35,299 nucleotides of DNA from Clostridia bacterium (GTDB lineage Bacteria > Bacillota > Clostridia > Oscillospirales > CAG-272): assembly GCA_017456545.1 (NCBI GenBank), contig JAFTJE010000005.1:1-35299 (forward strand). Reading direction: 5' to 3'. The position numbers were made by a program, and so were the translations under genes. The notes under the pieces were generated by a model that saw nothing but the letters and a program-made list of their open reading frames with translations, was not told the origin of the DNA and searched no databases. Every line of letters starts with the position of its first letter. Positions within the stretch are counted from its first letter, which is position 1. Below, piece after piece: positions 15,843 through 35,271 of this stretch.

Positions 15843-16331
15843 ATGAAAAAATTATATAACAAAGCCATGGAGCTTTACAGAAAATACAAGGAAATATTCT
15901 GGTACCTGGTGGTAGGTGGACTTACTACCGTTGTTTCCTACGGTACATACGCACTGTTTTACAGTCTTTTCAGCCTTAATGCCACATTATCGGAGACTCT
16001 ATCGTGGGTATGTGCTGTGCTTTTTGCCTATCCCACAAATAAGCTTTTGGTTTTTGAGAATCACTCGAAAAATATACTGTTAGAGTTTTCATCCTTTGTT
16101 GCATCAAGGGTGGCTACGGGGGCATTCGGTGTAGCGTTTATGTGGCTCTTTGTGGATATGCTCCTTTGCAACGGATATCTTATGAAGGCTATATCAAGTA
16201 TAGTAATACTCGTGCTTAATTATGTTTTCTCCAAGCTCATTACCTTCAGAAAGAAAAAGGAGAAAACCCCGGACCCCGTTACAGAAAATACACAAATATG
16301 TGTGGAGGATACGGAAGAGGGTACAAAATGA
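15843..16331 (+). CDS. GtrA-family membrane protein
   Basis: 162 residues from the ATG after AGAAGGATAGAA; the longer reading starts inside the leader palindrome. Four hydrophobic segments (about 21-40, 44-68, 79-108 and 112-135) and the motifs FWYLVVGGLTTVVSYGTYAL and TNKLLVFE match the GtrA/DPMS group, which are thought to flip or hold undecaprenyl-phosphate sugars for cell-wall or teichoic-acid glycosylation. The last 25 residues are a charged cytoplasmic tail. No glycosyltransferase is adjacent. Its stop overlaps the next start (ATGA). Family call is firm, substrate unknown. Confidence 0.85.
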   Translation: MKKLYNKAMELYRKYKEIFWYLVVGGLTTVVSYGTYALFYSLFSLNATLSETLSWVCAVLFAYPTNKLLVFENHSKNILLEFSSFVASRVATGAFGVAFMWLFVDMLLCNGYLMKAISSIVILVLNYVFSKLITFRKKKEKTPDPVTENTQICVEDTEEGTK

Positions 16332-17167
16332 AGGACTTTTTTGAAAAGGAAAATATAGAGCTTTATGCCTATGTGCCTCTTAAGGAATGTAAGATAATCA
16401 AAAAATATCTCCTTGACAAAAACGGACTTGACGAAGGGTGTGGAGCTCTGATGATGCTCCTCCCGTACAGAAGCGAGGTGTCTCCTGTAAATCTGTCGGT
16501 ATATGCCTCAGTCAGGGATTATCATAAGTATGTGGAGGGGCTTGCCGAAAGGTTGGGTAACTATATAAGTAACCGATACCCGAATGCAAGATATAAGCTC
16601 TTTGCCGACCATTCTCCCATTGACGAGGTACACGCTGCCTGTATCAGTGGGCTTGGCTTTATCGGCAGAAACGGGCTTTTGATAAATGAAAAATATTCAT
16701 CCTTTGTGTTCCTCTGTGAGCTTATTACGGATTTGACCGAAAAGGAGCTTTGTATTCCACAGTATGTGGAAAAAGAGCCGAGGATGTGTATGAATTGTGG
16801 GGAATGTGCAAGGAAATGTCCATCCAACTGTATGGATGAAAGCGACCCCCGTCCAAAGACAGAATGTCTTTCTGCCATAACGCAGAAAAAGGGTCAGCTA
16901 GGTGACTCCGAGATAAAAATGATGCTGGATAATGGCTGTATCTGGGGGTGCGATGTATGTCAAAATGTGTGCCCGTATACAAAAAATGCTGACAAAACCC
17001 CTATTTCCTACTTTAAGGAGGGGATAATTACAGAGCTTACCACAGCTACACTTGATTCCATGTCCGAGGAGGAATTTATCTCCCGTCCCTTTTCCTGGAG
17101 GGGCAGAGATGTGATTCGTCGGAACACGGAGATATACGGAAATAGAAAAGCAGAGAAAAAAAGTTAA
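16328..17167 (+). CDS. Short QueG-like double-[4Fe-4S] protein
   Basis: 279 residues from the ATG overlapping the gtrA stop. The N-terminal part resembles the corrinoid-binding region of epoxyqueuosine reductase, with DHSPIDEVHAA (D94 in the place of the QueG catalytic Asp) and GLGFIGRNGLLIN. Two ferredoxin-like clusters follow: CMNCGECARKCP (C154, C157, C160, C164) and CDVCQNVCP (C208, C211, C215). QueG itself is about 350-390 residues with a C-terminal HEAT-like domain that binds tRNA; here the protein ends soon after the second cluster. It may be a reduced QueG, or a relative acting on another substrate. No other queuosine gene is in the window. Confidence 0.75.
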   Translation: MKDFFEKENIELYAYVPLKECKIIKKYLLDKNGLDEGCGALMMLLPYRSEVSPVNLSVYASVRDYHKYVEGLAERLGNYISNRYPNARYKLFADHSPIDEVHAACISGLGFIGRNGLLINEKYSSFVFLCELITDLTEKELCIPQYVEKEPRMCMNCGECARKCPSNCMDESDPRPKTECLSAITQKKGQLGDSEIKMMLDNGCIWGCDVCQNVCPYTKNADKTPISYFKEGIITELTTATLDSMSEEEFISRPFSWRGRDVIRRNTEIYGNRKAEKKS

Positions 17168-17212
17168 TTTACCCTGTGAGGGGAACAGCTATGAAAGGAG
17201 AAAGGATATTTT

Positions 17213-20200
17213 ATGATAACGGTCTTGTACGGTAAAATGGGTACGGGAAAAAGCACCCATATTATGGAACAAATAAAAAATGACTGTAAGAATAAAAAGC
17301 AGTCCTTTCTTATAGTTCCCGAGCAGAAGGCTATTATTGCCGAGAGAGAAATAGCCGAGACTATGCCACCCTCTGCCCAGCTGTATACAGAGGCAACTAA
17401 TTTTTCAAGACTTGCCAACAGCGTGTTCCGTAAGCACGGAGGACTTGCCTATAACTATATTACAAGAAGCGGAAAAAGGCTTATTATGTACCGTGCTCTT
17501 TGTGAATTGCGTGATAGCCTTACCTCCTATAAAATTCCCAAGGGCAGAGAAAGAGGAGCAGTGGAAATGTTCCTTGATGCAGTGGGAGAGCTTAAGACCT
17601 ACGGTGTATCAACAAATAAGCTGGAGGCAATTTCGGAGTCTATGGTCAGCCCAAAGCTGTATGCAAGGGTCAAGGACCTGAGCCTTGTGCGTAGCGTGTA
17701 CGAAAAAATATTATCGGAAAAATTTAACGACCCCTATGACGATATTCTTCTCCTTGCCGAAAAATTAAAAAATCATCAGTTTTTTAAGGGTGCAAATGTT
17801 TATGTGGACTCCTTCTACGGATTTACGGGAGCCCAATGGAATGTACTTTATGAAATAGCTAAGCAATGCGACAAGCTTGTTATAGCTCTCGATATGCCTA
17901 AGGACGGTAAGGACTCTGACTATGCCAAAATAGTGCAGACCTCCAAGGCTGTTAAAAGGATGAGTCGGAATATAACGGGTAAGGAGCCCAATGTGGAAAC
18001 CTTTGATGAGGACCACCTGCACAAAAACCCCACAATTAAGTATCTTTACGATAATTTATGGGACTTTGGTGCATCCCCCATAGAGGAGCAATCGGGAGTT
18101 ACCTTAGTTACCCCCGAGGACGAGTTTGACGAGTGCGAGTATGTAGCCTCCGAGATAAAAAGACTTGTAATGCAGGGGGCAAGATATTCCGATATTGCCG
18201 TGATTATGGGTAAGGCAGATACATATAACGGCATTATAGATATGACCTTTGATAAATATGAAATCCCCTCATTTTTCGCAAAGCAGACGGATATCAGTGC
18301 AAAGCCCCTTGTAAAAATGATATTCTCGGCAATAAAAGCAGTGGACTCCTACGGACTGCAGGATATTTCCGACTATCTTAAGTGTGGCTACTCCGATATA
18401 GATATGGAGCACGCCTCCGAGCTTGAGGGATATATGTATCGCTGGAAGCTACGGGGCAGAAAGAAATTCGATAACGATGAGTACTGGAATGCCAATCCCG
18501 ACGGATATGTTGTGGAGACCACCGAGTCACAGCTTGAAGAGCTTGCAAGGATAAATGAAACCAGGGACAGGCTTGCAGAGGCACTTTTGCCACTCAGGGA
18601 GGCATTTGATAAAAAGCTCACCTGTCGGGAGGTTCTTATCGCACTTTACAGATTCCTTGAGAATCATAAAATCAGGGAAAAGCTTGATAAGGAAATAAAG
18701 GAATCGAGCAAGGAGGAGGCTATTGAGCTTTCTCAGCTTTACAGTGGACTTATGGGTGCCTTTGACACCGTAAATGAAATAATGGGTGAGGAGATTCTCG
18801 ATGCTGAAGCCTTTGCGGGAGCTCTTCGCTATGCTCTTGACGGAGTAAACGTGGGAGTGATTCCCACAGGTGAGGATAAGGTCACCGTTGGTGAGGCACA
18901 CGGCATAAGAACAAAAAACATCGCCCATGTGTTTATTTTAGGTGCAGTATCGGGTAAATTTCCCGGCACTGTGATTGATGACGGATATTTTACGGACAGG
19001 GATAAAATCGAGCTTGAGGGAGTCGATATAGTTTTATCCTCCAAATCCGATATAAAATCGGCAGACGAGCTTCTTAATTTCAGAAACGCCATAGCCGTAG
19101 CCTCGGAGAGTGTATGTATTTCTGCTCCGAGAGGCTCCATAGGAAGCAGCACACCGTCGGAGCCCTCCATAGGCTATGAAAGAGTTAAAAAGCTCCTTTA
19201 TAATGCTACAGAGAAAAATACCTCTGCCATCCCCCTGTACGAAAGAATCTTTACCGAGGAAGTGGCAAGGGAATATGCCTCCTTTGGAAAGGATGTGGGA
19301 GCAGAGGCAATACGGAGCCTTTTGAATATTGAAAGGAGCAATGTGGACTTTGCAAATGAGAGCATTTGCGTCGGCGAAAAAGAGGCAAAGGAAATATTCA
19401 CCACAGCTATGAATATGTCATACTCCAGAATAGAGACCTTTGTTTTATGCCATTTCAAGTATTATTGCAACTATCTGCTTAAGCTTCGTGAGAATACAAA
19501 AATATCCTTTTCCTCCAGGGATGTGGGCGACCTTACCCATAAGGTATTTGAGCTCTTCTTCCTTAAGGTAAAGGAGGACGGGATTGATTTGTCAGCCCTT
19601 GAGGGGGAGGATATTATCAAGCTTGTTGACGAAATAATTGACGGGTATATTAAGGCAATTTGTCGGGGCAGTCACGCTTCTTCAAAAATGGAGAGGCTCT
19701 TTGACAGACTGAAAAAGCATATTTACATATTCATTGAAAGCATGGTAAATGAATTTTCAGAAAGCAAATTTCTTCCCGAGTACTTTGAGCTTTCCATGGG
19801 CAACGGGGAAAATGATGTGCCCTCCAATGTATTCAGAATTGGAGAGGATGCAACCCTTACAATGCGTGGCTCCTGTGACAGAGTGGATGTATACAGAAGG
19901 GACAAGGATACCTTTATTCGTGTAATAGACTATAAAACAGGCTCCAAGGAATATAACAGGGCAGATGCGGAAAGAGGACTTAATCTTCAGCTCCTTATAT
20001 ATCTTTACTCCCTTTGTAAAATGGGAGACTGTAAAATCAAGCAGGAGCTGGGGGGAGAGATTACCCCTGCGGGAATGATGTATATACCCCTTGAAATCGG
20101 TAAGGCGAAAAACGAAACCGAAAAGGGAATTACCTCAGCCGAGGGAGAAAAGAACGAGGTGGATGCCGTTGTCGGCAAAATGAAACGCAGTGGAATCCTT

Positions 20201-20470
20201 CTTGATGACAGGGAGCTCCTTTCGGCTCAGGACCCCTCAATGGAGGGAAAGTATATACCGACCTATCCACCGAGGGCTAACAGCAAGGAGGAGACCTTTG
20301 TATCAAGGGAACGCTTTGAGGAGATATTCGGGGAGCTTGCCGATACAATAGAGGAAATAGGTCTTCAGATGCTTTCGGGTGATGCAAGGGCAGAGCATCT
20401 TGAAAGAAAAGATAATACCTCACCCTGTAAATACTGTGCAAACCGTGCCGTTTGCAGAAGGAGGAAATGA
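17213..20470 (+). CDS. addB: AddB subunit of helicase-nuclease
   Basis: 1085 residues. It acts with AddA to resect double-strand breaks to Chi-type sites for RecA loading. Walker A GKMGTGKST is at 7-15. The C-terminal RecB-like nuclease has VIDYKTG with D906 and K908. The Fe-S cluster characteristic of AddB is complete: C746 (in LCHFKYYC) and C1072, C1075, C1081 at the extreme C-terminus (CKYCANRAVC). Length is slightly below the ~1150 of Bacillus AddB. Ribosome site GAAAGGAT; 45 bases after the QueG-like gene, and overlapping the addA start. Confidence 0.95.
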   Translation: MITVLYGKMGTGKSTHIMEQIKNDCKNKKQSFLIVPEQKAIIAEREIAETMPPSAQLYTEATNFSRLANSVFRKHGGLAYNYITRSGKRLIMYRALCELRDSLTSYKIPKGRERGAVEMFLDAVGELKTYGVSTNKLEAISESMVSPKLYARVKDLSLVRSVYEKILSEKFNDPYDDILLLAEKLKNHQFFKGANVYVDSFYGFTGAQWNVLYEIAKQCDKLVIALDMPKDGKDSDYAKIVQTSKAVKRMSRNITGKEPNVETFDEDHLHKNPTIKYLYDNLWDFGASPIEEQSGVTLVTPEDEFDECEYVASEIKRLVMQGARYSDIAVIMGKADTYNGIIDMTFDKYEIPSFFAKQTDISAKPLVKMIFSAIKAVDSYGLQDISDYLKCGYSDIDMEHASELEGYMYRWKLRGRKKFDNDEYWNANPDGYVVETTESQLEELARINETRDRLAEALLPLREAFDKKLTCREVLIALYRFLENHKIREKLDKEIKESSKEEAIELSQLYSGLMGAFDTVNEIMGEEILDAEAFAGALRYALDGVNVGVIPTGEDKVTVGEAHGIRTKNIAHVFILGAVSGKFPGTVIDDGYFTDRDKIELEGVDIVLSSKSDIKSADELLNFRNAIAVASESVCISAPRGSIGSSTPSEPSIGYERVKKLLYNATEKNTSAIPLYERIFTEEVAREYASFGKDVGAEAIRSLLNIERSNVDFANESICVGEKEAKEIFTTAMNMSYSRIETFVLCHFKYYCNYLLKLRENTKISFSSRDVGDLTHKVFELFFLKVKEDGIDLSALEGEDIIKLVDEIIDGYIKAICRGSHASSKMERLFDRLKKHIYIFIESMVNEFSESKFLPEYFELSMGNGENDVPSNVFRIGEDATLTMRGSCDRVDVYRRDKDTFIRVIDYKTGSKEYNRADAERGLNLQLLIYLYSLCKMGDCKIKQELGGEITPAGMMYIPLEIGKAKNETEKGITSAEGEKNEVDAVVGKMKRSGILLDDRELLSAQDPSMEGKYIPTYPPRANSKEETFVSRERFEEIFGELADTIEEIGLQMLSGDARAEHLERKDNTSPCKYCANRAVCRRRK

Positions 20471-23400
20471 TGGAGCTTACAGTACCTCAGAAGCAAGCGA
20501 TAGAATTTAAGGACGGAAATCTCCTTGTTTCCGCCGCAGCGGGAAGCGGAAAAACCTCCACGCTTATAAAGAGAATAGTTGAAAGGCTTAAAGACGGGGA
20601 GCAAATCACCGATAAGCTTATTGTAACCTTTACCATTTCCGCCGCCTCCAAGCTCCGTGCCGACCTTATCAAGGGCATAGGAGAGGAGATAGCCAACGGA
20701 CAGGATGGGAAGCATCTCGGGGAGCAGCTTATAAAGGCAGGTAATGCCGATATCTGTACAATAGATGCCTTTTGTATGAAGCTGGTTCGTGCCAACTTCG
20801 ATAGAGTTGGCATAGATGCCGACTTTCGCATAGGTGAGCAGAGTGAAATAGATATCCTCAGCAAGGAGGCAATGGAGGAGACTCTTGACACCTTTTTCGA
20901 GGCTGAGGAGAAGGATGCTGATTTTCTTACGGTATGCGACTGCTTTGGCGATATGAGAAACGAGGATAAGCTGGCAGAAAGCCTTTTGAGTCTTTATTCC
21001 AAGCTTATTACCACTAAGGAGGGAGCAGAGCTTCTCCTTAAAAATAACACCTGTGAGGGGGATTTTATGGACACTCCCCACGGAAAAATCCTTTGTGAAC
21101 GCATAGTAAGACTGGTTGATTACTATAAAAAGTATTACGGACTTCTTATAGATGAGTGTATGAAGGATGGAAAGACAGCAAAGAGCTACGCCCCTACATT
21201 GGTATCGGATATCGGTATTATGGACGGTATATTGAGTCTTTGCAAAAGCTGTAAATACGATGAGCTCAAGACATATCTTGCTTCTGTAAAATACGCAAGA
21301 TTCGGTATTGTAAAGGGAGAATGCTCCGTTGACACAGGAGCCATAAGGGATAAGAGAGACACCTTCAAGGCTAAGCTGAAGGATATTGAAAAACGGTATT
21401 TTTCCACAGACCATAAGGACGCCTGTGAGGCGTATAATCAGAACGGAAAAATGTGCCGTGCCATCTACAAAATAATCAAAGCATTTGAGGATGAGCTTTT
21501 TTTGAAGAAAAAAGCACACTCCATATACAGCTTTAACGATGTGGAACGCTTTGCTCTCTGTCTTCTCTGCAACAGGGACGGGAGCCCTACGGATACAGCC
21601 CTCGAATACAGAAAAAGATACAACGAGGTCTATATCGACGAGTATCAGGATACAAACTCCATCCAGGATGAAATATTTAAGGCTATAAGCAACGGCAACA
21701 GATTTATGGTGGGTGATATAAAGCAGAGCATCTATAAATTCCGTTCTGCCGAGCCGGAAATTTTTGCAGGATACAGAGATTCCTTTACCCCCGTGGACGA
21801 ATTTCAAAGGGGGGATACGGGTGCAGGTATCTTTATGTCAAACAATTTCCGTTCCGATAAGGGAGTTATAGACTTTGCCAACCTTGTATCGGATTATATG
21901 TTCAAAGGCTCACAGGAGATTCCCTACGGACCGAAGGACCGTCTTATATTCTCCAAGGCAAGACTGCCTGAGGGCTATCCCCACGAAAAGGCAGAGGTAT
22001 ATCTTATCAAAGGAAAAAGAAACGACGAAACAGAAGAAAATCCCGAGGCTGACTTTGTTGCAAGGAAAATAAAATCCCTGATAGAACACGGATACCTTCC
22101 CTCAGGTAACAAAATTCAGGCTAAGGACATAACAATTCTTTTGAGGACAAGAACATGCCTTAACGATTATATCAATGCCCTTAAAAGACACGGGGTCAAT
22201 TATCAGTACGAAAACGAGGAGCTGCTTTACGAGAGAAGTGAGATTCTTCTTGTGATGTGTCTTCTTAATGTAATTGACAATCCTATGCGTGATGTGTATC
22301 TGGCAGGTGCTATGCGTTCTCCTGCGTTTGATTTTACCCTGTCAGAGCTTGTAGCTATAAGACAGTCGGGAAGAAGTCTGCCGTCACTCTATGCATCCTG
22401 CAAATCCTATCCCAAGGAGGATAAAATAAGGAAAAAGCTGGATGATTTCTTTGAAAAAATAGAAAAATACCGTAAGGCGTGTCGTAAATTACCCTCCCAC
22501 GAGGTAATTTCTATGCTTTATACGGACTTCGGACTTCTCGGTAGCTGTACCAAGGAGGAGAGAAAAAGCCTTCTCACCCTTTACGATATAGCAAGAAAAT
22601 ATGAGTCGGGCTCATACAAGGGAATCGGCTCCTTCCTTCGCTATACGGACAGAGTGGTGAATGATAAAATAAAGGAGCATGTTTCGGATAATGACGGCCG
22701 GAGTGTGGAGATTATGACCGTACACGGCTCCAAGGGACTGCAAAGACATATATGCTTTCTCTGTGATACTGCAAGAGGCTTTAATACTGAGGATATCAAA
22801 AGTCCCATATATTTTGACAGGTTTCTCGGAGTGTCCGGTTATATTTTCAAAAACGACGGCCTTACAAAATATAACACCTTAATGAGAAAATGCACCTCCA
22901 TGGCTATGGTTAACGGAATTGTAGAGGAGGAAATGCGAAAGCTCTATGTAGCCTTAACCAGAGCAGAGAATAAAATGATAGTTACGGGAATGGACACTGA
23001 CCCTGTAGGGTACATTTGTGAAATGAAGGAAAGGGCAAGATGCCAAACCCCCTACTCAATACTCAATACAACCTCCTGCCTTGACTGGATTGTCGGTGCA
23101 TGCAGCGACACCTCCTCGGACTTTTTTGAAATGTCCGTAATAGACGGGGAGAGAGATACCGTGGAGGCAACGGACGGTGTATATGAGGAAGAAGTACCCT
23201 ATTCCCAAGGGGAGCTTGAGAAAATAAAGAGAGAGCTTAAAAAACGCCTTGAATTCAAGTACAAAAATGAGCATATAAATAAGGTACCCTCCAAGCTCTC
23301 GGCGTCAAAGCTGTCTAAAACAGTTCTTGACAGCACGGAAAACGAGGAGGTAGACCAGAATATATCCCTGGATATTATGCCCACATTCCTGACAGGTGGA

Positions 23401-23958
23401 GAAAAACAGGTAACAGGCTCGGATATAGGTACGGCAACCCACCTGTTTTTGCAATTCTGTGATTTCGGTGAGCTTGAGAAAAACGGAGTCGACAAGGAAA
23501 TGGAGAGACTACGGGGAGAATACCTGTCGGAGTCCGTATGCAAGCTTGTCAACAAGAGCTATATTGAAAAATTTATGGGCTCACGACTGTTCACTGAGCT
23601 GAGAGAGGCAAAAAGCCTCTTAAAGGAATTCAGATATAATATTCTGCTCCCTGCCAATGATTTCTCCGAGAAAACCGATTTCCACGGTGAAAAGGTGCTG
23701 GTGCAGGGCGTGGTAGACTGTATCTACGAAAGAGATAACGGAGAGCTTGTGCTGGTGGACTATAAAACAGACAGCGTAAATATGTCAAATTACCGTCAGA
23801 TTTTAGTCAGCCGTCACAAAAATCAGCTATCGTATTATAAAAAAGCTTGCGAAATGATGATGGAAAGACCCATTTCACAGGTGTTGATTTACAGCGTTCC
23901 CTTAGGCAGGAGTGTTTTCCTGCCCGACGGAAGCGATGATTTTTCAAAGGAGGAATAA
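20470..23958 (+). CDS. addA: AddA helicase-nuclease subunit
   Basis: 1162 residues from the second of two adjacent ATGs (20467 or 20470); GGAGG at 20460-20464 is better spaced for 20470, which overlaps the addB TGA by one base. UvrD-like helicase: Q motif PQKQAIE, Walker A AAAGSGKTS (22-30), Walker B IDEYQDTN, and helicase motifs DIKQSIYKFRSA and TVHGSKGL. The C-terminal nuclease has VDYKTD with D1097 and K1099, so the enzyme should have two active nucleases with AddB. Length is normal for AddA. It is followed without gap by a conserved short gene. Confidence 0.96.
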   Translation: MELTVPQKQAIEFKDGNLLVSAAAGSGKTSTLIKRIVERLKDGEQITDKLIVTFTISAASKLRADLIKGIGEEIANGQDGKHLGEQLIKAGNADICTIDAFCMKLVRANFDRVGIDADFRIGEQSEIDILSKEAMEETLDTFFEAEEKDADFLTVCDCFGDMRNEDKLAESLLSLYSKLITTKEGAELLLKNNTCEGDFMDTPHGKILCERIVRLVDYYKKYYGLLIDECMKDGKTAKSYAPTLVSDIGIMDGILSLCKSCKYDELKTYLASVKYARFGIVKGECSVDTGAIRDKRDTFKAKLKDIEKRYFSTDHKDACEAYNQNGKMCRAIYKIIKAFEDELFLKKKAHSIYSFNDVERFALCLLCNRDGSPTDTALEYRKRYNEVYIDEYQDTNSIQDEIFKAISNGNRFMVGDIKQSIYKFRSAEPEIFAGYRDSFTPVDEFQRGDTGAGIFMSNNFRSDKGVIDFANLVSDYMFKGSQEIPYGPKDRLIFSKARLPEGYPHEKAEVYLIKGKRNDETEENPEADFVARKIKSLIEHGYLPSGNKIQAKDITILLRTRTCLNDYINALKRHGVNYQYENEELLYERSEILLVMCLLNVIDNPMRDVYLAGAMRSPAFDFTLSELVAIRQSGRSLPSLYASCKSYPKEDKIRKKLDDFFEKIEKYRKACRKLPSHEVISMLYTDFGLLGSCTKEERKSLLTLYDIARKYESGSYKGIGSFLRYTDRVVNDKIKEHVSDNDGRSVEIMTVHGSKGLQRHICFLCDTARGFNTEDIKSPIYFDRFLGVSGYIFKNDGLTKYNTLMRKCTSMAMVNGIVEEEMRKLYVALTRAENKMIVTGMDTDPVGYICEMKERARCQTPYSILNTTSCLDWIVGACSDTSSDFFEMSVIDGERDTVEATDGVYEEEVPYSQGELEKIKRELKKRLEFKYKNEHINKVPSKLSASKLSKTVLDSTENEEVDQNISLDIMPTFLTGGEKQVTGSDIGTATHLFLQFCDFGELEKNGVDKEMERLRGEYLSESVCKLVNKSYIEKFMGSRLFTELREAKSLLKEFRYNILLPANDFSEKTDFHGEKVLVQGVVDCIYERDNGELVLVDYKTDSVNMSNYRQILVSRHKNQLSYYKKACEMMMERPISQVLIYSVPLGRSVFLPDGSDDFSKEE

Positions 23959-24363
23959 ATGAGAATTATAGTTTGTCTTGACGAAAGACGGGGTATGATG
24001 TTCAATAAACGCAGACAGAGCAGAGACAGCCTTGTAACAGCCGATATTGTCTCCTCCCTCGAGGGAGAGAAGCTGTTTATATCCCCCTATTCCGAAAAGC
24101 TGTTTGAGGGATTTGACCTTAAGCTTAAGGTCAAGGACAACCCGATAAAATCGGCAAAGAGGGATAGCATATGCTTTATTGAGGATGTGTCCCCAAATGA
24201 ATATGCCAAGGAGATAGACTCCGTTGTCATATATCACTGGAACAGACACTACCCCTGTGATTTCTATTTTGATTTTAATATGGAGGGCTTTAAGCTTGTG
24301 TCAAGCACGGAATTTGCAGGCTCCTCCCACGAAAAAATAACCAAGGAGATATGGATTAAATGA
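23959..24363 (+). CDS. Conserved 134-residue protein of unknown function
   Basis: 134 residues, soluble. The ATG follows the addA stop directly, with a GGAGGAA ribosome site. Landmarks are MRIIVCLDERRGMMFNKRRQ at the start, YHWNRHYPCDFYFDF (about 92-106) and SHEKITKEIW at the C-terminus. From memory a conserved clostridial family has these same blocks and has sometimes been labelled ribonuclease Z, but no metallo-beta-lactamase motif (HxHxDH) is present, so that label should not be used. The stop overlaps the next ATG. Position between addA and a nuclease lipoprotein suggests DNA-related work, but this is only context. Confidence 0.8.
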   Translation: MRIIVCLDERRGMMFNKRRQSRDSLVTADIVSSLEGEKLFISPYSEKLFEGFDLKLKVKDNPIKSAKRDSICFIEDVSPNEYAKEIDSVVIYHWNRHYPCDFYFDFNMEGFKLVSSTEFAGSSHEKITKEIWIK

Positions 24364-25289
24364 AAAAGAGAATTTTATCAATCTTAGCCCTTTTGCTTAT
24401 TGTGGCTATGTCATTCACCTCCTGTAGCCTGTTCTCCGATGAGACAGATGCAACAGGTAGCCCAAGTACAATAGTAATTAACGGAGAGACCGTTCCGTCA
24501 TATACAAATAAAGCATATGTGTATCTGAACAACGGAAAGCCTACCTTTACAGATAAGGAAATTACCACAAAATCCTATGAGTTTTACAGTGAGCTTGATT
24601 CCCTCGGCAGATGTGGTGTTACCCACGCTTGTATAGGTATTGACTTGATGCCCACAGACGACAGAGGAGAGATTGGCTCCGTAACTCCCTCGGGCTGGAA
24701 ATACAACGGCAAGAGCAATAATAATAAGTACGATACCACTCTTGTAGAGGGTGGCTACATATACAACAGATGCCACCTGATCGGCTTCCAGCTGGCAGGC
24801 GAAAACGCCAATGAAAAGAATCTTGTAACAGGCACCCGTTACCTCAACATCGAGGGTATGCTCCCCTTTGAAAATATGATTGCCGACTATGTAAAGGAAA
24901 CAAAGAACCATGTAATGTTCCGTGTTACCCCAATTTATGACGGTAACAATCTCGTTCCCAGTGGCATACATATGGAGGGCTACTCCGTAGAGGATGAGGG
25001 TGAGGGCATATCCTTCAATGTATACGCATACAATGTTCAGCCCGGTATTGAAATTAACTACGCCACAGGAGAAAACTGGCTCTCAGGTAAGGCTCCCGAG
25101 GTAGAACAAACAACAACCCAAGACCCCAACAGCATAACATATATTCTTAATAAAAACAGCATGAAATTCCATAAGGACGGCAGCTCCTGTGGTAACAGCG
25201 TAAAGGAAGAGAATAAGGATATCTATACAGGCAACAGACAAGACCTGATAGATAGGGGGTATTCGCCCTGTGGCACCTGCAAACCCTGA
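24360..25289 (+). CDS. Secreted DNA/RNA non-specific endonuclease lipoprotein
   Basis: 309 residues. Lipoprotein signal peptide with lipobox FTSC (C22). Residues about 70-235 form a beta-beta-alpha-metal nuclease of the EndA/DNA-entry type: NRCHLIGFQLAGENANEKNL, with H139 the likely general base and N154 the likely Mg2+ ligand; the usual DRGH is NRCH. The tail (about 262-309, ITYILNKNSMKFHK...CGTCKP) is the small Cys-rich domain often attached to such enzymes and to clostridial surface nucleases. It should digest DNA outside the membrane for nutrition, biofilm release or uptake. It is the last gene of the addBA operon by four-base overlap. Confidence 0.88.
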   Translation: MKKRILSILALLLIVAMSFTSCSLFSDETDATGSPSTIVINGETVPSYTNKAYVYLNNGKPTFTDKEITTKSYEFYSELDSLGRCGVTHACIGIDLMPTDDRGEIGSVTPSGWKYNGKSNNNKYDTTLVEGGYIYNRCHLIGFQLAGENANEKNLVTGTRYLNIEGMLPFENMIADYVKETKNHVMFRVTPIYDGNNLVPSGIHMEGYSVEDEGEGISFNVYAYNVQPGIEINYATGENWLSGKAPEVEQTTTQDPNSITYILNKNSMKFHKDGSSCGNSVKEENKDIYTGNRQDLIDRGYSPCGTCKP

Positions 25290-25294
25290 TTTGA

Positions 25295-25670
25295 AGCTTA
25301 CTGACACATCGGATTTCTGTGTTGTTCCTCGAGGGTGACCTCGACTATCGTAAAGATAGCCTTCGTCCACCCTCTGTGGTACGCCTTGAAATCCTTGGTC
25401 ATTAAACTTCAAATGTGTAGAGCTTACTGACACATCGGATTTCTATGTTGTTCCTCATCTAAGACCTCGACTATCGTAAGATAGCCTTCGCCCTTAGATT
25501 GCGGTACGCCTTGTCTGTCTCGGTTATTAAACCTAAAATGCCTAGAGCATACTAACGCTTCGACATACTGCGTTGTTCCTCGAGGGTGACCTCGACTATC
25601 GTAAAGATAGCCTTCGTCCTTAGATTGAGGCACACCTTGCTTGTATTATTAAACAGCCTTTAGATGTACT
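25295..25670. repeat. Three tandem ~125-bp structured repeats
   Basis: Units at 25295-25420, 25421-25545 and 25546-25670. The shared core reads GTTGTTCCTC, a 7-nt arm, ACCTCGA, a CTATC-GTAA(A)-GATAG hairpin, CCTTCG, the second 7-nt arm, then GG(T/C)AC(G/A)CCTTG. The arms are GAGGGTG/CACCCTC in unit 1 (25331-25337, 25368-25374) and ATCTAAG/CTTAGAT in unit 2 (25457-25463, 25493-25499): different sequence, same pairing. Unit 3 has the unit-1 left arm (25582-25588) and the unit-2 right arm (25619-25625), which do not pair. Function unknown; not coding. Confidence 0.85.
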
Positions 25671-25686
25671 ATGGTATAAAAAACAA

Positions 25687-25730
25687 GACGCATTTAGTGT
25701 TATATCCCTAAGGGAGTAATGCTAAATGCG
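25687..25730. terminator. Long bidirectional terminator hairpin
   Basis: ACGCATTTAG (25687-25696) pairs with CTAAATGCGT (25721-25730), and pairing continues inward with GU wobbles to an inner TCCC-TAA-GGGA stem-loop. T-rich tracts follow on both strands. It terminates the addBA operon and repeats on the plus strand and the aldo/keto reductase on the minus strand. Confidence 0.85.
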
Positions 25731-25742
25731 TTCTATTTTTAC

Positions 25743-26663
25743 TTATATTTTCTCCATCGCCTCGAAAAGGTCGGGGAGGTGTTCGATTTTCTTTACGCTG
25801 GTTATGGGAATTATGGGATAGGGGGAGCTTGCAAGGTGGAGAATAGATGCCGTCTGAACGGAGCAGGACTCTCTTTCTGCCAGGGCAAGGACCTCCTTAT
25901 ATGCTTCCCTTGTGGCTTCGTTGTCGTATGCACGGACAAGAGAGTCGGGTATTGACACTCCCCCGTGTATTTTTGCGAAATATCCACGGGCTGTGGATTG
26001 ATAGGGTATCAAAGGCTTACCTGTGCTTTGGTGGAACTTTTCCTCCTCTGCACCGTGGATTACAAGGGTCGGGTCGGGATTTGTGTTATATCCCCTGTTT
26101 ACCGTGGCAGAGCTATGCTGATTAGACACAGCACTAAAGCCTCTGATATTATGCTCACGGGCATATTTCTCTGCCTCATATAATCTCTCTGCTGTAAAAT
26201 TGGATGCACCGTAGAGAAGGATTTTGCCCTCGCCCCGCAGCCCTTCCATTGTTTCCAGTATTTCTCCGATATGCTTTGATGTGTCATCCCTGTGCAGCCA
26301 GTAGAAATCAATACAATCCCTTTTAAGAGCAGTAAGGCTCTCCTCAAGGTCAGCACGGATATCCTTCTCATTTAGTCGCATAACAGTAGGTGAATCAAAA
26401 TTATAGTGGGCACCCTTTGTGGCGATGACTACCTGCTTTTTAGTGCTTTTCAGCCACTCTCCGAGGAATTTTTCACTGGCGTTACCGGCACCCTGCACCC
26501 ATTTGCCGTAAACATTGGCAGTATCTATAAAGCTGCCACCCCTGTCCATATACTCATCAAGTATCCGAGAGGCAAGCCTATTATCAACAGCAGTTCCAAA
26601 ATGGTCGGCACCTATACAGATTTTGGACACTGTAAGTATATTATCTATCTTAAATGTAGTCAT
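25743..26663 (-). CDS. Aldo/keto reductase
   Basis: 306 residues, normal length for this TIM-barrel family. The catalytic tetrad is visible as D47 (FIDTANVYG), Y52, K83 (IATKG) and H124 (YWLHRDD). The C-terminal NADPH-binding region is PIIPITSVKKIEHL, typical of the YhdN/Tas type that uses NADPH to reduce aldehydes or open-chain sugars. Ribosome site GGAGTG. It lies 69 bases downstream of the S24 repressor gene on the same strand with no terminator between, so it may be read from that promoter. Substrate cannot be told. Confidence 0.9.
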   Translation of the reverse strand: MTTFKIDNILTVSKICIGADHFGTAVDNRLASRILDEYMDRGGSFIDTANVYGKWVQGAGNASEKFLGEWLKSTKKQVVIATKGAHYNFDSPTVMRLNEKDIRADLEESLTALKRDCIDFYWLHRDDTSKHIGEILETMEGLRGEGKILLYGASNFTAERLYEAEKYAREHNIRGFSAVSNQHSSATVNRGYNTNPDPTLVIHGAEEEKFHQSTGKPLIPYQSTARGYFAKIHGGVSIPDSLVRAYDNEATREAYKEVLALAERESCSVQTASILHLASSPYPIIPITSVKKIEHLPDLFEAMEKI

Positions 26664-34964: not shown

Positions 34965-35145
34965 GTGAAATATTCGGCTTGTGCCGAATGTGAAATAATG
35001 TGTTATCCCACATTGTGAAATATTGCTCCCTGCAGTCGCAATGTGAAATGAAATTTACCCACATTCGCATCAGCGAATATTTCACATTTGCGAAGCAAAT
35101 ATTTCACAGCGAAGCTATTTCACTTGCCCATAAGGGCAAATTTCG
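34965..35145. repeat. Array of seven hairpins separated by GTGAAAT/ATTTCAC boxes
   Basis: GTGAAAT at 34965, 34990, 35015 and 35043, then ATTTCAC at 35079, 35101 and 35117, with ATTTCG at 35140. Between them are hairpins: ATTCGGC/GCCGAAT (34972-34989), AATGTG/CACATT (34997-35014), ATTGC/GCAAT (35022-35042), ATTCGC/GCGAAT (35063-35078), ATTTGC/GCAAAT (35086-35100), AGC/GCT (35108-35116) and TTGCCC/GGGCAA (35124-35139). The left boxes can pair with the right boxes, so the whole can fold as a branched structure. No coding frame. It resembles structured intergenic repeats of gut Clostridia. Confidence 0.85.
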
Positions 35146-35271
35146 TTGAAAAAAACACATGGATTCTCACTGCGTGAGGCTTTTCCTCGAGCCTTATCCT
35201 TGCAAGCAGAGAACGGCTTACTCGGAAAAGAACGAACCAGCTCCTTGCAGGAGCAAGGAGGCAGGTCGAAA
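35146..35271. other. Leader region with further hairpins
   Basis: Holds CTCAC-TGC-GTGAG (35166-35178) and CTCCTTG-CAGGAG-CAAGGAG (35241-35260); the right arm of the second contains the AAGGAGG ribosome site of the possible gene at 35272, so the hairpin could hide it. No promoter is clear. Confidence 0.5.

Follow-up and report, generated by a model that had tools for sequence, protein, structure and literature searches.

Three tandem units found in the window (the whole 35,299-nt stretch of contig JAFTJE010000005.1 that was analysed) belong to a family of long hairpins that is scattered through related Clostridia and reaches into other bacterial groups. Our preferred reading, held with evenly balanced confidence, is that they represent a new family of small DNA repeats, dispersed and in tandem, that are imperfect palindromes of the REP and ERIC kind but members of neither, and are mobile or recombining. 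We read a conventional regulatory RNA as disfavoured, though the constancy of the internal loops remains an argument for recognition of the fold by some factor.

The array in the window

A repeat search of the window located three copies at 25295–25388, 25421–25514 and 25546–25639, spaced 126 and 125 nt apart. Because TTTGAAG pairs with CTTCAAA, the true start of the array is 25290, directly behind the TGA of the upstream gene (Table 1). The covariance model described below matched all three units on the - strand, unit 1 at 25298–25416 (123.7 bits), unit 2 at 25424–25541 (104.4 bits) and unit 3 at 25549–25667 (85.2 bits). When the units were folded with RNA parameters and compared with shuffled sequences, the z scores for the + and - strands were -3.7 and -5.9 for unit 1, -0.4 and -2.4 for unit 2 and -1.5 and -1.1 for unit 3, so only unit 1 beats the shuffles strikingly on both strands.

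As the preliminary description had stated, the inner arms of units 1 and 2 differ in sequence yet pair within each unit, with GAGGGTG and CACCCTC flanking CTATC/GATAG in unit 1. The 5' outer arm of unit 2 is of the unit-1 type and its 3' outer arm resembles the 3' arm of the first unit in G011, the closest genome, which carries the orthologous array. Unit 3 had been described as chimeric, and this was borne out: 48 nt identical to unit 1 are followed by TTAGATT of the unit-2 type, and the inner arms cannot pair because GAGGGTG faces CTTAGAT. The third unit of G011 keeps ATCTAAG as its 5' arm, which would match the 3' arm of unit 3 and therefore supports the recombinant reading. Unit 3 represents half of an exchange.

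A terminator scan restricted to loops of 3–8 found none at the far end of the array. Genes for the AddB and AddA helicase-nuclease lie upstream of the array (17213–23958), and a Gut-1 RNA (RF01706) was found at 35074–35148 on the - strand (69 bits).

Table 1. Features of the array and its flanks, in window coordinates
Feature	Position	Strand	Basis or remarks
Upstream gene, DNA/RNA non-specific endonuclease (PF13930)	24360–25289	+	its TGA (25287–25289) abuts the array
Tandem array, three ~125-nt units	25290–25667	+	repeat search and sequence
Unit 1	25290–25413	+	outer stem TTTGAAG (25290–25296)/CTTCAAA (25407–25413); inner arms 25331–25337/25368–25374
Most conserved internal loop, 5' strand, unit 1	25317–25331	+	complement is the GAGGARCAAC block; alignment and cross-phylum pattern match
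Most conserved internal loop, 3' strand, unit 1	25375–25388	+	complement is the AAGGCGYACC block; alignment and cross-phylum pattern match
Unit 2	25421–25541	+	inner arms ATCTAAG/CTTAGAT
Unit 3	25546–25667	+	25572–25619 same as unit 1, then unit-2 type; inner arms unpaired
Terminator-like inverted repeat	25679–25740	.	24-nt arms, 79% complementary, 14 nt between; at far array end, between convergent genes
Aldo/keto reductase gene, ending beyond the inverted repeat	25743–26663	-	

Distribution of the family

A blastn search of 96 relatives recovered copies in 20 genomes, all of them among the 29 of the same genus. Relatives were also searched, as the preliminary description had proposed, with a covariance model (119 nt, built from 45 units), which found the repeat in 26 of the 29 genus genomes, the richest of which had 30 matches, and beyond the genus in the family (28 of 196 genomes, in 15 of 71 genera). 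These dispersed copies support the earlier suggestion of a small mobile palindromic repeat.

When species genomes were scanned for both constant blocks of a single internal loop, 45 stretches were recovered. MAGs titled Clostridia or Oscillospiraceae accounted for 34 of them, many with titles naming goat, sheep or deer guts, while the other 11 came from two Selenomonadales, from eight titled Thalassolituus, Oleibacter, Bermanella or Oceanospirillaceae, and from one Sphingopyxis MAG. Selenomonadales belong to the Negativicutes, and Thalassolituus is placed in Oceanospirillales. With the model, the two Selenomonadales genomes gave 78 and 14 matches and the two Oceanospirillales genomes searched gave 3 and 2; across the class of the Selenomonadales MAG, 32 of 250 genomes had matches.

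The hairpin in Oceanospirillales precedes tRNA-Val in Val-Asp arrays, or tRNA-Met, and its AAGGCG strand is in the tRNA sense. Repeated tRNA-Val/tRNA-Asp arrays with the hairpin before tRNA-Val were seen at L080, L094, L095, L096, L109 and L115. Identity as a tRNA spacer holds for the Oceanospirillales copies and not for those in Clostridia, where one tRNA was found among 56 loci.

The repeats of the window and those of nine loci gave no Rfam match at or above the gathering threshold. A phage, plasmid or virus origin was rejected, as no match was obtained in viral contigs with one exact pattern or in phage, plasmid and E. coli collections by blastn of the window array. A coding sequence was also rejected, since by eye the strand is open in some copies and contains in-frame stops in others. 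Full-text searches with core strings and topic searches, which covered listings and partial texts, returned no paper recognised as describing the hairpin family, and the sole match to the core strings was an unrelated Salmonella study.

Structure and covariation

Read in the orientation AAGGCGYACC...GAGGARCAAC, which is the - strand of the window, a unit forms one long hairpin of approximately 120–135 nt in which helices of variable sequence alternate with constant purine-rich internal loops, A/G-rich on one strand (A 52%, G 27%). Pairing was assessed in two alignments. The first (A2) was fitted to the model and contained the best 150 of 163 matches, giving 138 distinct rows from 93 loci; 93.9% of its cells were paired, compared to 70.5% in shuffles. 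In this alignment 25 of the 26 pairs had changed on both sides, none of 500 shuffles reached the score, and pairing fell to 44% or less when the partners were slid. The second (A1) was aligned with MAFFT, not fitted to the model, and contained 45 of the 46 prepared references (L011:1493–1611 was left out), pre-filtered by score and span. Here 92.3% of cells were paired against 72.5% in shuffles, and one of the five measures, further pair types, was not above the shuffles (290 of 500). Pairing across many copies is far beyond chance, as expected from the earlier claim that the arms covary, and the covarying helices looked for in a functional RNA are present. Neither a lack of covariation across many copies nor confinement of the repeat to this locus was observed.

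The types of pair were then counted. Outside two constant wobble columns, the cells comprised 3043 Watson-Crick, 55 G-U, 36 A-C and 162 other combinations. A control set of 43 tRNAs from the same loci, counted over their acceptor and T stems, gave 463 Watson-Crick, 40 G-U, 5 A-C and 8 other. The ratios of G-U to A-C (55:36 in the hairpin and 40:5 in tRNA) differ with a Fisher P of 6e-4, which is nominal as the cells are related by descent. Outside the constant columns there are therefore far fewer wobbles than in tRNA and little wobble excess, and the G-U count well above A-C that would mark the active strand of a functional RNA was not found there. With the two constant columns included, there are 261 G-U and 36 A-C, and the folded strand therefore does hold fixed G-U positions.

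The AAGGCG strand was the more stable in 120 of 137 units using RNA parameters and in 128 of 137 using DNA parameters. A structured RNA, antisense or independent, produced from this strand would fit the better folding, the A/G-rich loops and the tRNA-sense strand in Oceanospirillales. We nevertheless consider such an RNA very unlikely, given that a consensus scan found no promoter-like site on the - strand around the window array, that the outer alignment columns show little conservation and that Rfam gave no match.

Position behind stop codons

Context was examined in two genomes, G016 and G022, using every contig with a match, whole or in part (55 matches in 46 clusters), and genes from a simple ORF caller. 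In 32 of the 46 clusters the repeat starts at -8 to +12 nt relative to a stop codon whose gene reads in the GTTGYTCC sense, and in none of the 46 was a stop codon in the opposite sense equally near. Three G016 copies were placed after a terminator hairpin instead. In the Negativicutes genome G345, where most windows (30 of 39) were chosen for holding matches, 13 of 39 copies were adjacent to a stop in the sense orientation and 4 of 39 to one in antisense.

In 16 of 22 usable first units the outer pairing crosses the stop codon and reaches the last codon or beyond, a count that has no control. When gene ends were swapped for 21 units, the mean run was 5.57, compared to 4.81 after swapping with a maximum of 5.60 in 200 swaps; the signal of gene-end complementarity is modest. 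At some other stop codons the gene end was found repeated as a perfect inverted copy of at most 18 nt, with a run of at least 11 in 12 of 819 genes against 1 of 819 in the control. Five of these 12 then carry small tandem ATGAATTGC mini-hairpin repeats, and some resemble ordinary terminators.

Inverted gene-end copies that span or abut the stop codon were seen at L185–L201 (G022 C12 and C19) and L144–L164 (G016 C1 and C12). Examples are an 18-nt copy behind dnaN of G022 (C19, gene 16208–17356) and a 17-nt copy at G016 C12:170560. A second palindrome, of the CCCC...GGGGTTCCCC type, was seen inside or beside some repeats, as if nested, at L163 (G016 C12:201849), L146 (G016 C1 near 53700), L020 and L032.

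The main rival to a DNA repeat is a 3'-UTR RNA element, in which the hairpin that follows the stop codon would function as part of the mRNA, for example by slowing terminating ribosomes or blocking 3' exonucleases. It is favoured by the adjacency to sense stops, by outer pairing that runs through the stop codon and by the location of the window array between a stop codon and a terminator-like repeat. There is also a published parallel, as the available part of one report describes E. coli REPs within 15 nt of a stop codon that slow ribosomes at termination or block 3' exonucleases (PMC12306157). However, the mRNA strand is the weaker folder, wobble pairs are few and stop adjacency is weak in G345. 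We regard this role as rather unlikely, and it could coexist with the DNA-repeat reading.

Orientation and GC skew

The orientation of the repeats agreed with the local GC skew in 42 of the 46 clusters of G016 and G022 (nominal P 2.6e-9, with clusters or copies treated as independent in this and the other orientation test). A first strand test covered 48 of the 55 hits, with three near-zero-skew hits settled by gene majority; the figure of 42 of 46 is the full count. In the four clusters that disagreed the skew was no larger than 0.014, and one of them (G022 C8) also lay against the majority gene strand. In all stretches but one, 27–60% of transcription-unit ends were on the other strand, and gene direction alone therefore does not explain the orientation. 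That the sense strand follows skew despite these opposite-strand ends also counts against the 3'-UTR element.

On C1 of G016 the repeats change orientation between 147.5 and 157.8 kb, near genes for DnaA, DnaN, RecF-like and ParB proteins, and the skew turns positive at approximately 156–162 kb. From the flip near dnaA and the change in skew sign, we infer that the repeats follow the leading strand. Of the 28 copies in G016, 24 are on C1 and the 120–202 kb part of C12, and none is on the 424-kb contig C13; synteny with G022 ties much of this part of C12 to the dnaA contig. In G022, C18:1–20000 (L204) is syntenic with G016 C12 185–200 kb with gene order kept, and there the skew is positive and the repeats are on the strand opposite to that in G016, as if inverted relative to replication.

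The 4.36-Mb Negativicutes chromosome of G345 was similar in that orientation followed the local skew in 63 of 77 copies (nominal P 7e-9), with the AAGGCG strand on the G-rich strand, a sign opposite to that in Clostridia. One adjacent pair in G345 is inverted (C2:71981 and 72120). The possibility that the repeats themselves produce the GC skew was rejected, as masking them changes the skew little in G345. Across the G345 stretches (L277–L315) the local skew often changes sign without tracking gene direction, and its size in 20-kb windows reaches about 0.24.

Turnover and exchange of stems

Orthologues of the window gene were found in eight of the 29 genomes, and the repeat is present behind three of them, with three units in G000, three in G011 and one plus fragments in G020. 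The model gave no match behind the orthologue in G018, G008, G009, G021 and G027. For the first unit behind this gene, G000 has the outer stem TTTGAAG/CTTCAAA and G011 has TTTTAGG/CCTAAAA, each of which is paired. Among 13 orthologous gene pairs of G016 and G022, hand-picked from genes with a repeat in at least one species, 11 were occupied in one species only. In one such pair the G022 gene is on the leading strand and has the repeat, and the G016 gene is on the other strand and lacks it. Presence or absence at orthologous genes is a further point against the 3'-UTR element.

For 96 rows assignable to a genome (L081, L093 and L108 were assigned by coinciding hit series), the nearest core was within the same genome in 57, compared to a mean of 10.1 and a maximum of 22 with shuffled labels. 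Five of 12 close pairs were between contigs, with cores 94–97% alike and outer arms, each self-paired, only 29–61% alike. In a G022 pair 10 kb apart the core was 71% and the outer arms 89% alike, and three G016 loci had common outer arms around different cores. As near-identical cores are found with both arms at unlinked loci, arms appear to travel in pairs, and the mixing of cores and outer arms indicates that at least part of the stem exchange involves complementary blocks. Together with the rarity of G-U pairs and the orientation that follows skew, this paired travel points to exchange and spread at the level of DNA. It follows that the statement in the preliminary description that selection keeps a stem is not proven by covariation.

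Exchange and spread might also proceed with no dedicated enzyme, if replication template switching at quasi-palindromes and gene conversion create, perfect and spread hairpins that selection clears elsewhere. The strand bias, the block exchange of complementary arms, the reach of the outer arms into the gene end and the perfect inverted gene-end copies found elsewhere are all consistent with this. We judge it unlikely because the mismatched loops are constant across copies and phyla, though perfecting should erase them, and because gene-end complementarity was modest in the swap test.

Comparison with known elements

In the available parts of two reports, REP/BIME elements are extragenic imperfect palindromes in many copies, proposed to be non-autonomous and moved by a hairpin-recognising transposase (PMC2817692, PMC12306157). 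The repeats described here are likewise extragenic, multicopy imperfect palindromes, and the REP location, often at most 15 nt from a stop codon, was matched by the 32 of 46 clusters within -8 to +12 nt. However, REP/BIME units are ~20–40 nt and alternate in orientation, whereas these repeats measure ~125 nt and combine several helices with constant loops; tandem neighbours in the Clostridia arrays examined lie on one strand (G345 has one inverted adjacent pair), and orientation follows skew. Y1 transposases (PF01797) were found in 12 of the 29 genus genomes, including the copy-rich G008 and G026, and were absent from G016, G022, G009, G007, G005, G019, G003 and G011, each with at least nine copies and some of them incomplete genomes. 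A REP moved by a RAYT was rejected on the basis of this absence from several copy-rich genomes.

ERIC is also an imperfect palindrome, and the repeats resemble it in size (near 127 bp) and in being intergenic and dispersed. They differ in that the helices vary, the loops are constant and the base is at the stop codon. ERIC and MITE-like small repeats are covered in the available part of PMC2759123, and stem-loop families in a table of PMC2267715. ERIC is defined by similarity to an enterobacterial consensus of 127 bp; by blastn, the window array had no match in E. coli genomes. MITEs are marked by terminal inverted repeats shared with an autonomous IS and by target-site duplications.

Integron attC sites have variable stems and constant unpaired bases, are found behind stop codons and act as folded single strands, and their ends carry R boxes (RYYYAAC and GTTRRRY). 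The repeats share the variable stems, the constant unpaired positions, the placement behind stop codons and the dependence on strand, and could on these grounds be attC-like sites of a degenerate or other integron. This origin is largely refuted and in our view extremely improbable: an integron integrase above the TIGR02249 cut-off was found in none of the 29 genus genomes, cassette genes were absent among the identified neighbours, and these neighbours are ordinary, for example AddA/AddB near the window array and DnaN at G016 C1:147535. Weaker tyrosine-recombinase matches were found in 27 of the 29 genus genomes and likewise in all 14 control genomes. A DUF3800-associated motif was rejected as DUF3800 genes were found in 0 of 29 genomes.

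The Nitrosococcus-1 candidate motif, listed in 2010 from Nitrosococcus and Clostridia as of ambiguous RNA status and, in the table, without an Rfam accession (PMC2864571), is found in similar taxa. By this likeness in taxa, Nitrosococcus-1 might be the same motif or a relative. Literature searches for its name found only the 2010 paper.

A possible mechanism

For a repeat family at the level of DNA, a structure-recognising enzyme may act on the hairpin while the strand is exposed in single-stranded form at the replication fork, and would place copies behind genes, where least harm would be done. Recombination between copies would then exchange hairpin tips as a whole, altering the two arms at once, and would amplify units in tandem; unit 3 of the window may be such a swap caught half-way. 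A more specific form, in which a single-stranded DNA hairpin is moved by a replication-coupled enzyme and homes to the 3' ends of leading-strand genes in several bacterial lineages, with the outer stem rebuilt at each gene from its final codons and stop codon and a constant-loop core shared by recombination, is in our estimate decidedly unlikely.

Several observations count against the DNA-repeat reading. No mobilising enzyme was found, Y1 transposases being patchy and no integron integrase exceeding the cut-off, and no target-site duplication was recognised by eye at the ends of the repeats, which pair but differ between copies. The A/G-rich loops and the two constant G-U columns are as in structured RNA, and four clusters are discordant with skew. 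G345 shows weak stop adjacency, the opposite skew sign and an inverted pair. The G022 pair 10 kb apart is alike in both core and outer arms, and the Oceanospirillales copies are in tRNA arrays, in the tRNA sense.

Implications

The hairpins form an additional family of structured repeats, one that has no Rfam match and has near relatives in Clostridia, Negativicutes and Oceanospirillales. The strong covariation seen here arises at least partly through the exchange of complementary blocks between DNA repeats, which is a caution for RNA discovery pipelines that take covariation as proof of RNA. The anchoring at stop codons and the strand polarity make the mechanism by which such palindromes move directly testable.
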